Positions 20,354 through 59,373 of a DNA stretch of 64,000 nucleotides are shown here, in pieces. Position 1 is the stretch's first letter; each line of letters starts with the position of its first letter. The notes beneath the pieces were generated by a model. It saw only the letters and a list, made by a program, of their open reading frames with translations. It ran no database searches and was not told the origin of the DNA. Position numbers and translations under genes: made by a program. The stretch is from a virus: positions 35,182 to 99,181 of IMG/VR virus record IMGVR_UViG_3300050821_001343. One strand, 5' to 3'.

Positions 20354-21481
20354 TTAGTCATCGTACGCTAGGCTCTCGTACTTGGTGAAGTTGTTGACTT
20401 GCGCATAGACCTTACGGGTGAGAATCAAGCGATGCTCTGGCGTCCGATACTCGTAGACTCCCTTCAGACCGTTGAACGATACCAAGTTCTTCGGTTCGAA
20501 GTAAACTTCGTCGTATTCCTCGATAGGTTCTGCCGCCTTCTTGCCCTTGCCCACCTTGGGATGCACACGGTGGATGTACTCGATTCCGAACTGCCGGAAC
20601 GGGTTAACTCGAACTTCATTCTTTTCGTGATCCAGACGGACAAGTTCCTTTCCATTGAGAAGTTCAAACTGGGCCGTGTAAGTCTCGCTCCATTGCTGCG
20701 ACATCTTGACATTAAGCATTTCCATCGCCTTGACTGGAGTCTCATCGTAGCGATTGCACTCTTCTACGATGGCTTGTAGAATGTCGAAGCTAATTGGGTT
20801 GACCATGGAAGCGATTACGCCAAGGTTGCTTAAGTTCGCCTTGTTCTTGAGATTCTCCTTGCCATACTCCAAGATGAAGTCTCGGCTCAAACCGATGAAC
20901 TCAAGCGAGTAGTACAAGCGTCCCGGACGATTCTGAAGATGATCGTTGATCCCGAGATAGTTGTTAGTGGTCAAGACTAGCAGCTTCGTGGTTGTGAAGA
21001 ATCCATCGAACAGTGTCAAAAGACCTTGTTGATCGTCTTTGGTATACACCTTCTCGAACTCATCGAACAGAATAATGCAGGGCTGCGTGATGGACTGGAG
21101 AAACGTATTAAATGCGTCTCCGGTGTAACTGTTGTTGACAATCAGAGTCGGATAGCCGCGAGTGAGCCCTTCGATGGATAGCTTCTTTGCCAGTAAGGTC
21201 TTTCCGCTTCCCTTCTCGCCGCTCAGAAGCACGCCCGTGCTCTTGTGCTTACGATCCTCGAACGTGTTCAAGATGCGATCAGCCTTGTCGATCACGTCGC
21301 CGTAAAGACGGCTCGGCAATTCGAAGTCGGGAGCGATTCTCAAGAAGAACCCAATTCCCGGTGCCGCATCGACGAGATATGTGCCAACGGGAAGCTTGGA
21401 AAAACGCTGTCCCGGATTGTCTGCGCCAAGCATGAAAATGTCCTCACGCCTGAAAAATGTTGGTGCCTGTGGTTGACTCAT
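20354..21481 (-). CDS. AAA+ ATPase
   Basis: 375 aa, SD AAAGGAATTGAA. Residues about 80-100 hold Walker A (LLSGEKGSGKTLL), about 135-145 Walker B (PCIILFDEFEKV), and sensor 1 in LVLTTNN about 30 residues later; NRPGRLYYSLEF supplies the arginine region. The C-terminal 130 residues are not recognised. Motif order is standard, unlike the second AAA+ protein at 57859. Phage proteins of this kind remodel protein or DNA complexes; the substrate is unknown. Confidence 0.8.
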   Translation of the reverse strand: MSQPQAPTFFRREDIFMLGADNPGQRFSKLPVGTYLVDAAPGIGFFLRIAPDFELPSRLYGDVIDKADRILNTFEDRKHKSTGVLLSGEKGSGKTLLAKKLSIEGLTRGYPTLIVNNSYTGDAFNTFLQSITQPCIILFDEFEKVYTKDDQQGLLTLFDGFFTTTKLLVLTTNNYLGINDHLQNRPGRLYYSLEFIGLSRDFILEYGKENLKNKANLSNLGVIASMVNPISFDILQAIVEECNRYDETPVKAMEMLNVKMSQQWSETYTAQFELLNGKELVRLDHEKNEVRVNPFRQFGIEYIHRVHPKVGKGKKAAEPIEEYDEVYFEPKNLVSFNGLKGVYEYRTPEHRLILTRKVYAQVNNFTKYESLAYDD

Positions 21482-55076: not shown

Positions 55077-56081
55077 CTAGGAAACTGCCCTAAACTTTCG
55101 ACTAGGCATCTCTTCTACCAGATCGGCCAATTGTGACCCGAGAGATGCCATTGAAGCTTGTACCGATGACTTATAATCGGCATTCTTCTTTAATGCTTGC
55201 ATGTCCATGTCCGGGGTTATCAAGGCTTGCACATCGGCGGCAAGCTTGGCAAGGTCCTTATCCCCGGTAATGTTTCGTGCTTCGAACGTCTTGAGGAAAG
55301 CTTGTATATTCGTTACTGCCGATGTATGTAGCCGTTTGACGTTCCCATCTTCGCTCGGGGCCAATGCGTCTGCTAGATGATTCACCATCTCAGATAGGGT
55401 TTGACGCATGACTGCTGTAATTTCCTCAGTCACCACTGCCATTTTCGCCTGCATCTTCTCTTGCTCAGCTTCATACATGCCCATAGCCTTTAGGCTCTCC
55501 GGGGTTTGAAACGTCAAATACTGCCAGTCAAACCCGAAGCGATTACGGATTACATCAGGCGGAGGAAAGTCATTCGGATCAAGTAGAGTGCCTACTGGAA
55601 CTCCTAAGACTGTGGCAAGTTCGGCTAGGTTTTGCTCCGCCGTTTTCACCCGCTCGGGGTAGGCTATGGCAAACGTTTCTACCAGATCGGCACGAACTTG
55701 AGCATACTCACTCAGCAGGCCATTGACATGCTCTAACAGATCAAGAGGTAAGAGCATAACCCCCATGTCATACGGCAGGCAAAGGTCATACAACCTTGAA
55801 CGCATCTTCCCATCGGCTGATTTGATAGCCTCTAGCTCTGAGGATTCCAAGATGGTCTTTTGAATCTTCAAAAGCTTTTTCAAGCTTGCAGCCTGTGGGG
55901 GGTTCGATACCGGCTCTAGTGACTCAGAACTTTCCGGTACAGGTTCGCTTTTCGGGGTATCGTTCGAACCCCGTAAAACACTATTGGAAACCTTTTTCGA
56001 GTTTCCAAGCACTTTGAAACTCACGCGGAGAAACATACTTTTTTCAAGGATGTTTCCTGCAAGATGTGCTTTAATCGGCAT
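55077..56081 (-). CDS. DUF3150-like protein with C-terminal SRKFR motif
   Basis: 334 aa, SD GGGGATGAA. Residues 1-55 form a basic N-terminal segment and linker; about 75-300 are helical with LPYDMGVMLLPLDLL and FAIAYPERVKTAEQNL, which resemble DUF3150 proteins found beside AAA+ or MoxR ATPases in mobile elements. No catalytic motif. Ends EEMPSRKFRAVS. Last gene of the AAA+ module operon. Family call is tentative. Confidence 0.6.
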   Translation of the reverse strand: MPIKAHLAGNILEKSMFLRVSFKVLGNSKKVSNSVLRGSNDTPKSEPVPESSESLEPVSNPPQAASLKKLLKIQKTILESSELEAIKSADGKMRSRLYDLCLPYDMGVMLLPLDLLEHVNGLLSEYAQVRADLVETFAIAYPERVKTAEQNLAELATVLGVPVGTLLDPNDFPPPDVIRNRFGFDWQYLTFQTPESLKAMGMYEAEQEKMQAKMAVVTEEITAVMRQTLSEMVNHLADALAPSEDGNVKRLHTSAVTNIQAFLKTFEARNITGDKDLAKLAADVQALITPDMDMQALKKNADYKSSVQASMASLGSQLADLVEEMPSRKFRAVS

Positions 56082-56161: not shown

Positions 56162-56494
56162 TTATAGAAAATATGCCTCAAGATATGCAATCTCCGCGTC
56201 TATGGCCTGTGACCTGTCCTTGTAAACTTCCGGTAAAATTGGCCCGTCAATAGGCGATAGATTCACTCTCCACAGGCAAGACCATGCGCGGGTAGACTCT
56301 GTAACCTTTCCGTACTCCCCAAACACGGCACGGGCCATATAAAAGGCTAGACGGGGCATCAGGCTAACAGGCTCTACATGTGAGGCCCGTTTAATTACGC
56401 TTGTCTCATCCAAGAAACAAGCGGAAAGCCCGTTAACTAAGAAACGGGCTTCGCCTGTGCTGTCATCAATCGAGATTGTTATGCGTTCAGTCAT
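56162..56494 (-). CDS. DUF2997-like N-terminus with extra domain
   Basis: 110 aa from ATG 56494. The first 18 residues (TERITISIDDSTGEARF) match the DUF2997-type start of the 57086-57277 protein, and the DNA there is nearly identical over about 25 bases. The remaining 90 residues are unrelated, helical and Cys-containing. It may be a duplicated and fused copy. Confidence 0.6.
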   Translation of the reverse strand: MTERITISIDDSTGEARFLVNGLSACFLDETSVIKRASHVEPVSLMPRLAFYMARAVFGEYGKVTESTRAWSCLWRVNLSPIDGPILPEVYKDRSQAIDAEIAYLEAYFL

Positions 56495-56505
56495 GACTGC
56501 CCTTT

Positions 56506-57078
56506 TTACTTTGCAGATAATTGCTTTGCCATCTCTGTACATACGTCAATATATGCGCGGTATTCGGTGATTTGCTCTTTTGTATAACCGTGATCTTCCC
56601 CGATTGTTTGGTAATACTTGCGCCATTCTTTAATAGTATGCACTTCACAGCCGATAGCAATTTCACTGTGACTGCAAAGTGTTACCGCGTGGCGTGTCCC
56701 TTGAATGTAAAGAGGGGAAAAGGCCCATGCATCGCCACGAACCCGCGCATTACCGTAAACCCGCGCATTACCGTAAACCCGCGCATTGCCCCCAATTCGC
56801 GCATCGCCATAGACTTGAGCATCGCCATAGACTTGAGCATCGCCCGCTACCCACGCATTACCATAGACTCGGGCATTGGCATAGACTCGGGCATCACCAT
56901 AGACTCGGGCATCACCATAGACTCGGGCATTGTCATAGACAATGCTAGTTGCGGCCAGATAAGCCGATGGAGCAACGTGGGCAGTTTTATAAATCCAACC
57001 TTGCCCGTTTTCGTGTGCGTGCCAATCACTGTCAACTGACTGCCATACTCTGTCTAATACGTTTTGTGGCACTCTCAT
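56506..57078 (-). CDS. Hexapeptide-repeat (left-handed beta-helix) protein
   Basis: 190 aa. Residues about 45-125 contain some 13 copies of a six-residue repeat of the type (A/R)VYGDA, expected to fold as a left-handed beta-helix like LpxA acyltransferases. The repeat DNA is an 18-bp unit with several identical copies (56750-56940), so it can expand or contract. The C-terminal 60 residues are helical. No acyltransferase His is evident. Function in the module unknown. Confidence 0.75.
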   Translation of the reverse strand: MRVPQNVLDRVWQSVDSDWHAHENGQGWIYKTAHVAPSAYLAATSIVYDNARVYGDARVYGDARVYANARVYGNAWVAGDAQVYGDAQVYGDARIGGNARVYGNARVYGNARVRGDAWAFSPLYIQGTRHAVTLCSHSEIAIGCEVHTIKEWRKYYQTIGEDHGYTKEQITEYRAYIDVCTEMAKQLSAK

Positions 57079-57085
57079 AAAAGCC

Positions 57086-57277
57086 TCATTGACCTTGTTT
57101 GACGTATTGGGTTTGAGTTTGATTGAACTCGGGTTTGTGAACTTCGCTTGTCACTTCGCCGATTTCGCCAAAAGCTTTGATGACTGCCGCACAGCCTTTG
57201 CCGTGAAATCCTTGCAAATCTACCGACGATTCGCCTGTGCTGTCATCAACCGTGATTCGTATCAATTCTCCGGCCAT
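57086..57277 (-). CDS. DUF2997 protein
   Basis: 63 aa. LIRITVDDSTGESSVDLQGFHGKGC (about 5-29) followed by EIGEVTSEVHKPEF fits DUF2997: a small beta-hairpin protein with a conserved GF.G..C. DUF2997 genes typically sit beside DUF1257 genes and an AAA+ ATPase, as here. Confidence 0.7.
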   Translation of the reverse strand: MAGELIRITVDDSTGESSVDLQGFHGKGCAAVIKAFGEIGEVTSEVHKPEFNQTQTQYVKQGQ

Positions 57278-57319: not shown

Positions 57320-57763
57320 TTACGCTTTTACAAAAAGCATGTCAGTCTTGCCGTTCTTTTTAGGGCCATATCCGGCAAAGCGCAAACCTTGCTTTGCTGC
57401 TAGTTTCTGGTACTGGGTTCGCGTATATGCTGCCGTGAGTTTGCCCATGTACGCGGGGGTTAAGAAGTGAGAGTCATACTGCGAGATGAAAGCACTATAT
57501 GTGCCATCGGCCTGCAAACGAAAACCAAAGTCATTCGAGGCCCCCGAACCCATCACGCGATTAAATGGGCCTTTGCGAATCACGATATTCGCCTTATCCC
57601 CTGCCGCATCGGTGTAATGCGTGGCTTTGCCCGTGTAATCGTACAATTGAGCGGGGGATTCATGAAATTCAATGTCCTCACGGTTGAATCCCATTTCGAC
57701 TAGTGCTGAAATGAGGGTTTCCGGGTCTTTGAATTTCGTTTGGTTAGTCGAGTATTTAGACAC
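57320..57763 (-). CDS. DUF1257 (Ycf35-like) protein
   Basis: 147 aa, GTG start (AAGGAT about 9 bases upstream). TKFKDPETLISALVEMGF at the N-terminus, NDFGFRLQADGTYSAFIS in the middle and a C-terminal LTAAYTRTQYQKLAAKQGLRF are the DUF1257 signature. Ycf35 is its chloroplast/cyanobacterial relative, of unknown function. Next to a Ycf46-like ATPase and DUF2997. Confidence 0.8.
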   Translation of the reverse strand: MSKYSTNQTKFKDPETLISALVEMGFNREDIEFHESPAQLYDYTGKATHYTDAAGDKANIVIRKGPFNRVMGSGASNDFGFRLQADGTYSAFISQYDSHFLTPAYMGKLTAAYTRTQYQKLAAKQGLRFAGYGPKKNGKTDMLFVKA

Positions 57764-57858: not shown

Positions 57859-59373
57859 CTAACGCATCATACGGCCTGTGCTTTCCTCTTCCACGTTCGA
57901 AGCTTGTGACACTCCGCCTGCGAACTGGTAGGCCCCCGGATAGGACGCTGATAGATACTTGCCGGAACTGCTACGCCGTAGGTTATCAATCCGCTCTGAT
58001 GCCGATACAGTCACAGGAATGATGTACTGTGCGGCCTGTGCCAGAGTCAAACCCAAACGATAGGCAGTGACGGCACAAGTCTTAATTTCGGCACCAGTCC
58101 ATCCCGTGTCATTCGGGGTAGACTCAATATCGGGAATCTGGTATTTCTCCCGGTAGATTTTCCAGATTGAGGCACGTTCGATTTGATCCGGTGCATCGAA
58201 AAAGAATATTGCATCCGCGAACCTACGCCGTAATTCCGGTGAAAGAGAATCGATGCTATTGCACGTTGCCAATGCAAAGATTTTACGATCTGAGATGGCA
58301 TCTAGCACGGCCTGTGCTTTACGCCAGTTTTCGTTCGAACTGCCGACAATCCCGGATTCCAGATCGGGGATTGAAAGAGAGATTACGGGCTTTTTATACT
58401 TGTTGCCAATGCCCTTGATAATCTCCGACTTACCTACTCCCGGCAAGCCTACCCCGATAGTTCCCCGCATCCCAATGTCTTGTGACCATGTGAGGAATCC
58501 ACCTATCAAGCCCGTTTTTACCCCGGACAATTCTGTGCCTGCCCCCGCCGCACCCTTTTCGATTTCATCCAAGAATAAAAGCACGTTTGGCGAGTCCTTG
58601 CCATTCATGACTCTATCAAGAAAAAGCTTGATTTCGCCAAGCCCCCCGATAGCGTCAAGGCTTGCCGTCGTCTTCAAAACCGATAGGCCGCGAGTCTGAT
58701 TGATAGCTTGCTCTTTCCGTTCCCAAAGTCCTTGAATGTCCATCTTCCCATTGGGAATGTCTAAGCACATAGCCGCACTTTGATCGGCGGGAAAGGCAGG
58801 CAGGCCGATTAGTGCGCGTGTGGCGTCTGCTAGCACTTCGCTTGATGGTTCGGGGAGTTTAGCGTCTTTAAAAGACGTTTTCACAATGGCCGTAATTTCC
58901 TCACTTGTGGGCAGGGGTTCGTCCAACACAAGGAAATCGTTAGCTAGTTCGTTCGGCAGGATGGCCCCGGAACTAGTCAAAAGGACTAGCATATTCCCCT
59001 TTGCCTTGTAGGGTTCGCGCAAGTTCCAAATCCCTTGGATAATAGGCGCATCAGTCCAAAACATGTGGGCATTGGCAAGAAACGTAATGCAATCGCCTTT
59101 GAGGAATGAGGCAACGCGCAAAGCTTCGCCAAGGTTCATTGTAGCCTCAATTGCCGTACCTGCCTTGCCCACTGCCGCGTTTAGCTCTGCTAGTGTGGGC
59201 TCGTGATACGTGTGCAAGCCTTTGACACAATCCCAGATAATGAAATGGGGCATTTTATCCTTTGCCCAAAGGGTTTTTACACGTTTGATTGTCGAATTGT
59301 TATCGAACGTGCGAACGGCTACCAGTGGAGTAGATACAGCGTGTGCAGCCTTAAAACTGTCCAAGAATTTCAT
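57859..59373 (-). CDS. Ycf46-like AAA+ ATPase with Walker B placed before Walker A
   Basis: 504 aa from ATG 59373 (a TTG at 59379 is possible). Residues 1-190 resemble the Ycf46 N-terminal domain (LPNELANDFLVLDEPLP). In the ATPase core the order is abnormal: LLFLDEIEKGAAG (Walker B type, about 264) and GFLTWSQD come first, then GVGLPGVGKSE (Walker A, about 306-316), GIVGSSNENWRKAQAVL, sensor 1 ALATCNS (about 368) and LRRRF (about 380). In ordinary Ycf46 the DEID-FLTW segment lies between Walker A and sensor 1. Related phage proteins share this order, so it is probably a stable rearrangement. Confidence 0.85.
   Translation of the reverse strand: MKFLDSFKAAHAVSTPLVAVRTFDNNSTIKRVKTLWAKDKMPHFIIWDCVKGLHTYHEPTLAELNAAVGKAGTAIEATMNLGEALRVASFLKGDCITFLANAHMFWTDAPIIQGIWNLREPYKAKGNMLVLLTSSGAILPNELANDFLVLDEPLPTSEEITAIVKTSFKDAKLPEPSSEVLADATRALIGLPAFPADQSAAMCLDIPNGKMDIQGLWERKEQAINQTRGLSVLKTTASLDAIGGLGEIKLFLDRVMNGKDSPNVLLFLDEIEKGAAGAGTELSGVKTGLIGGFLTWSQDIGMRGTIGVGLPGVGKSEIIKGIGNKYKKPVISLSIPDLESGIVGSSNENWRKAQAVLDAISDRKIFALATCNSIDSLSPELRRRFADAIFFFDAPDQIERASIWKIYREKYQIPDIESTPNDTGWTGAEIKTCAVTAYRLGLTLAQAAQYIIPVTVSASERIDNLRRSSSGKYLSASYPGAYQFAGGVSQASNVEEESTGRMMR

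Follow-up and report, generated by a model that had tools for sequence, protein, structure and literature searches.

Few protein machines are as widespread and as well studied as AAA+ motors, whose motif order is usually taken as fixed and is assumed by annotation models. A gene on a viral stretch of 64,000 nucleotides (the window) raises the question of how strictly this order has to be kept. In a preliminary description based on the letters alone, its product was taken for a Ycf46-like AAA+ ATPase in which the Walker B segment lies ahead of Walker A, and a permuted core that still folds was proposed. It has to be asked whether this order is genuine and inherited, what kind of rearrangement it represents, and whether such a protein could still work as an AAA+ enzyme.

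The ATPase gene and its motifs

The gene lies on the minus strand at 57859-59373 within a virus record of 99 kb and is uninterrupted over 504 codons, and the plus strand of this stretch carries stops throughout. Its parts are given below, with the corresponding positions in phrog_8638 and in a canonical profile made from 61 viral and phage relatives of canonical order.

57859..59373, minus strand: Ycf46-like AAA+ ATPase of 504 aa, core permuted; start codon ATG at 59373, stop codon at 57859-57861
58654..59373, minus strand: N-terminal domain of Ycf46 type, residues 1-240, in normal order and without Walker motifs of its own; residues 6-254 correspond to canonical profile 13-248; matching part of phrog_8638, 29-286
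58474..58590, minus strand: block B, residues 262-300, the Walker B strand and the next helix, placed before Walker A; residues 264-299 correspond to canonical profile 326-363; matching part of phrog_8638, 365-403
58555..58581, minus strand: Walker B LLFLDEIEK (265-273), with D269 and E270 invariant
58291..58467, minus strand: block A, residues 303-361, comprising strand 1, Walker A, helix 1, strand 2, the pore-loop region and helix 2; corresponds to canonical profile 266-324; matching part of phrog_8638, 307-364
58426..58449, minus strand: Walker A GLPGVGKS (309-316); Pfam AAA match at 308-352
57934..58287, minus strand: block C, residues 363-480, comprising the sensor 1 strand, the arginine-finger region and the lid; corresponds to canonical profile 366-499
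58258..58269, minus strand: sensor 1 ATCN (369-372)
58222..58224, minus strand: Arg384, invariant, at the arginine-finger place of canonical relatives; assignment inferred from the alignment

Each motif conforms to its pattern: GLPGVGKS fits the Walker A consensus GxxxxGK[ST] (Pfam AAA E 5.6e-10), LLFLDE fits hhhhDE of Walker B, and ATCN supplies the polar residue of sensor 1. The AAA+ order Walker A, Walker B, sensor 1 is not met by the protein, and the order Walker B, Walker A, sensor 1 noted beforehand proved to be exact (265-273, 309-316, 369-372). The assignment to Ycf46 held as well, as phrog_8638 matches the N-terminal domain (E 1.3e-32, best stretch residues 11-252), and the best viral fold matches of the permuted protein carry the name ycf46.

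Relatives with the same order

With the window protein alone as query, no relatives were found among viral and genome contigs, and a two-sequence alignment as query retrieved 80 viral loci. Walker B comes first in 17 of them (L007-L022 and L024) and Walker A in the remainder. Two of the 17, L010 and L024, gave search scores equal to those of L009 and L016 and were not counted apart, which leaves 15 distinct IMG/VR contigs. Phage proteins of the same order had been mentioned in the preliminary description, and they do exist: in addition to these contigs, gp103 of Tunturiibacter phage Tunturi_3 has the Walker B-first order at about 41–43% identity. Tunturi_3 is a podovirus-like isolate from tundra soil (PMC11924767). 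A tblastn search of phage records with two further permuted members returned only Tunturi_3 at E 1e-10 and no other permuted isolate. By a genome scan, nine more permuted loci (L087-L095), several of them incomplete, were identified in bins of Acidobacteriota, Gemmatimonadota and Planctomycetota, and a tenth locus (L096) ends after Walker B. The genome bin of L088 apparently contains two permuted copies and one canonical copy. Matches from Mycobacterium (Firecracker), Rhodobacter, Rhizobium and a Streptococcus satellite, as well as plasmid copies of Candidatus Manganitrophus and Treponema, were considered as permuted candidates and rejected, as all have canonical order.

It could be objected that the order is an artefact of assembly or sequencing or marks a decayed gene, and one relative (L099) does have a frameshift, though in canonical order. 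However, the reading frame of the window gene is open and its motifs are conserved, and the swapped order is kept at 28–54% identity across numerous independent contigs as well as in the Tunturi_3 isolate; the objection is already refuted by these independent occurrences and retains practically no credibility. Since 23 near-full-length proteins from independent contigs, one of them from a sequenced phage isolate, share the order, chance or assembly error is excluded. The gene belongs to a real, stable, permuted AAA+ lineage, and the earlier view of a lineage rather than an error is supported by the same swap in 23 of 23 proteins, which form one clade.

An exchange of two neighbouring blocks

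When aligned to the canonical profile, the window protein falls into four pieces with the chain order 13-248, 326-363, 266-324 and 366-499, corresponding to the N-terminal domain, the Walker B strand with the next helix, Walker A to helix 2, and sensor 1 with the lid. A search for homologues that keep the order had been suggested, and by the same alignment the order N-terminal domain, B, A, C was found in all 23 near-full-length relatives and canonical order in none, with swap boundaries that agree within a few positions. PHROG 8638, whose profile was made independently, aligned as 29-286, 365-403, 307-364 and 408-541 and failed to give a colinear whole-length match, and a third search (a genome search with another canonical alignment) returned the identical four pieces. 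About 17 linker positions (profile 249-265), which connect to strand 1 in canonical proteins, have been lost or can no longer be recognised.

Returning the blocks to canonical order gave a single colinear match in 22 of the 23 proteins and raised the mean score of the 23 from 233 to 274 bits; in the control, the same exchange shifted by 20 or 40 residues lowered the mean to 181–208 bits. The exception is L017, which has an insert in the N-terminal domain. This insert (residues about 170-190 of the L017 ATPase) carries four cysteines (CGGCGG...CEKCKG) and resembles a small zinc ribbon in the alignment.

Across 26 family sequences, Walker A follows Walker B at a spacing of 43–48 residues and sensor 1 follows Walker A, where both are present, at 60–62 residues; in canonical relatives, it is Walker B that follows Walker A, about 55 residues further on. 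A circular permutation, with old ends joined and new ends opened, does not apply, as the N-terminal domain stands first and the lid last, as in canonical relatives. From the alignments, the rearrangement is best read as an exchange of the two neighbouring blocks B and A, rather than as the move of one motif. The proposed permuted core is upheld by the profile alignment in this more precise form, with two adjacent blocks exchanged in 23 of 23 proteins and the linker positions lost or unrecognisable. Such proteins are split or under-scored by colinear profiles, and the best stretch of Pfam AAA covers only residues 308-352.

Conservation of catalytic residues

No variation occurs at D269, E270, E272, G312, K315, N372 and R384 among 17 aligned members. 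In place of the glycine that precedes the Walker A lysine, 11 of 26 members have A and 1 has S (GPPGAAKS, GVPGVSKS; among L001, L008, L013 and L087-L095), and variants at this position occur in active AAA+ proteins (MCM, RavA/MoxR).

It had been stated beforehand that the proposal would be refuted by a second acidic pair after Walker A. In that case, the Walker B role would have passed from the upstream LDEIEK to an acidic residue downstream of Walker A, and the upstream block would be a relic or serve another use. The order does depart from that of all canonical relatives, and individual acidic residues are scattered over the stretch from Walker A to sensor 1 (positions 325, 334 and 345, at most 65% acidic). 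However, Asp-Glu 269-270 is 100% conserved in the 17 members, and no adjacent conserved acidic columns were found between Walker A and sensor 1 in the same set, the most acidic column reaching 65%; at the level of sequence, the refuting condition is thus not met. In the predicted model, helix 2 runs straight into the sensor 1 strand, so that no strand would be left for a second Walker B. A replacement of the upstream Walker B is considered very unlikely.

Predicted fold of the exchanged core

A structure prediction had been called for, and AlphaFold returned a confident model from 16 permuted sequences (pLDDT 86.9, pTM 0.78; canonical control from 18 sequences, pLDDT 84.3, pTM 0.63). It contains the five expected core strands (264-268, 303-309, 330-333, 365-371 and 388-392), with lengths in the permuted and the canonical model of 5/5, 7/6, 4/4, 7/7 and 5/5. 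As DSSP assigns a strand to 264-268, these residues are hydrogen-bonded to another strand in the model, and from the strand count it is inferred that they belong to the P-loop sheet; the contact between Walker B and the P-loop is likewise inferred only. The best PDB folds by Foldseek were the two-domain AAA+ proteins p97/Cdc48, Rix7 and NVL with TM-scores of about 0.34–0.52, and these modest values say nothing on the swap because Foldseek aligns in sequence order.

The sheet order of AAA+ proteins is 5-1-4-3-2. In the exchanged core, strand 3 with Walker B and helix 3 would precede strand 1 with Walker A, helix 1, strand 2 and helix 2, and judged by homology and general knowledge of the fold, the permuted protein most likely folds into this ordinary sheet. 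Strands 1, 3 and 4 would each be directly preceded by one of the three cut points, at the sheet edge opposite the nucleotide, so that the loops on the nucleotide side (P-loop, Walker B, sensor 1) would keep their places. As a matter of topology, helix 3 would be followed by strand 1 where the adjacent strand 4 is usual, and helix 2 by strand 4 where the adjacent strand 3 is usual; each new connection would shift one strand, with crossovers staying right-handed and helices on the same face. According to the coordinates of the profile alignment, the new connectors have about 9, 3 and 1 residues. Ordinary ATP hydrolysis as a ring-forming remodelling motor is the most likely activity, though catalytic geometry, activity and ring formation are inferred and no biochemistry is available.

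A domain swap, in which block B of one subunit completes the sheet of its ring neighbour, is not excluded by the sequence, and block B is preceded by a short, new linker. However, all five strands are present in the confident single-chain model, and connectors of the length found suit a fold within one chain, which makes such a swap highly improbable. It may be speculated that the block exchange also changes motor coupling, as the N-domain linker enters the Walker B strand directly and not the Walker A strand as in ordinary AAA+ proteins. This suggestion is doubtful; if it were true, the N-terminal domain or a bound partner would have direct mechanical access to the catalytic glutamate.

Origin of the exchange

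In a tree of 95 sequences, calculated from all columns after the permuted blocks had been brought into register, a single branch separates the 23 permuted proteins from all others (SH-aLRT 100). Because un-permuting the blocks might bias this tree, it was repeated on the N-terminal domain alone, which is untouched by the swap, and the permuted clade was recovered again (SH-aLRT 99; 97 with one canonical row added). Both trees were quick searches without bootstrap and with a midpoint root. The closest canonical row to the permuted clade is L099 from a Planctomycetota bin, followed by the canonical group L023-L029 and L044, a grouping that meets the expectation of descent from canonical members under the midpoint root. 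L099 is frameshifted at Walker A and entered the tree only as two parts with the gap masked.

Canonical order is likely the ancestral state, since it is the general order of AAA+ proteins and one swap is enough for the sample. The swap most likely arose once, from a canonical Ycf46 ancestor of phage or plasmid type. A plausible route, which is inferred, would be an in-frame tandem duplication of A-B from which the leading A and the trailing B were then lost; in this way, the blocks could be swapped with every junction outside the motifs. The block orders of the retrieved sequences showed no intermediate with duplicated blocks. Several independent permutations might be conceivable if the change were easily tolerated, and the cuts do lie at tolerant places in the fold. 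However, both trees show a single change and the breakpoints are nearly identical in all members, and repeated origins are regarded as still less probable than a domain swap. A single origin of a Ycf46-type AAA+ protein with internally exchanged blocks and ordinary fold and hydrolysis is, as a whole, very probable, with catalytic geometry, activity, ring formation and the route of origin being inferred.

Relation to known systems

The permuted protein is a true AAA+ protein by descent and residues, motif order excepted. It shares with Ycf46-type AAA+ proteins (phrog_8638; canonical phage, plasmid and bacterial copies) the N-terminal domain, all catalytic motifs, the lid and DUF1257-, DUF2997- and DUF3150-like neighbours. 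It differs from them in the Walker B block before the Walker A block and in the missing linker positions. p97/Cdc48, Rix7 and NVL, its best structural matches in the PDB, have the same tandem AAA-like architecture but canonical order and Walker motifs in both domains, whereas the N-terminal domain of the permuted protein has none.

The circularly permuted GTPases RsgA/YloQ and RbgA/YlqF remain active and likewise have a P-loop NTPase domain with motifs in another order, and they are the nearest precedent for a permuted AAA+ core. In these GTPases, however, the whole domain is circularly permuted with new ends, whereas here the chain ends are fixed and two inner blocks are exchanged. In permuted DNA methyltransferases, an unrelated enzyme class, the motif order is reportedly changed in a Rossmann-like fold with the fold kept (Bujnicki 2002). 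The G domain of RbgA has been called circularly permuted (PMC6912228). No description of a permuted AAA+ protein or of reversed Walker motifs was found in the open-access literature, by which subscription journals are mostly not covered.

The lineage suggests that a common AAA+ machine can tolerate a rearranged core with all catalytic residues kept. Together with canonical relatives in the same gene neighbourhood, it provides a natural experiment on the connections needed for folding and ATP coupling.

Gene neighbourhood

Three conserved genes lie downstream of the permuted ATPase gene.

57320..57763, minus strand: DUF1257 (Ycf35)-like, conserved partner gene; iterated profile E 1.5e-29; no match to Pfam itself, relatives in the same profile match PF06868
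57086..57277, minus strand: DUF2997, conserved partner gene; PF11211 E 1.8e-4, narrowly short of the curated threshold; iterated profile E 8e-17
55077..56081, minus strand: DUF3150-like, conserved neighbour; PF11348 E 0.0024, short of the curated threshold

DUF1257-like and DUF2997 genes were each found at a minimum of 18 of 29 permuted loci versus at least 25 of 137 canonical loci, and DUF3150-like genes at no fewer than 20 of 29 versus at least 18 of 137; these counts are lower bounds, as many loci are cut. On Candidatus Manganitrophus plasmids, canonical-order copies are annotated in a row as AAA, DUF1257, DUF2997 and DUF3150, and the genes for DUF1257 (Ycf35) and DUF2997 are also clustered in Synechocystis (PMC4284462). 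As the permuted enzyme occupies the place held elsewhere by a canonical copy, the data suggest that it does the same work. The best guess, with about an even chance of being right, is that the gene set encodes an ATP-driven remodeller with its substrate or adaptor among the partner genes.

A few further observations were made around these loci. Similarity to the beginning of the DUF2997 protein of 57086-57277 (IRITVDDSTGESSVDL) is seen in a second small protein (ITISIDDSTGEARFLV; window 56162-56542), which the DUF2997 profile misses. Between the partner genes, at window 56506-57078, lies a beta-solenoid protein with repeated ARVYGDA units (YdcK solenoid, Hexapep). A second AAA ATPase of the phage, at window 20354-21481, has canonical order (Pfam AAA E 3.6e-9). 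Next to the closest canonical relative (L099:1-1700, Planctomycetota bin, frameshift at Walker A), a DUF3150-like gene is found. An AEP-TOTE primase domain (PF22548; L087:20-796) near a permuted copy in a Bryobacteraceae bin suggests an integrated element or phage. ORF96 of Tunturi_3 (L001:9696-10655) is annotated as 'HNH endonuclease', yet it belongs to the iterated family of the DUF3150-like window protein (E 1.2e-82).
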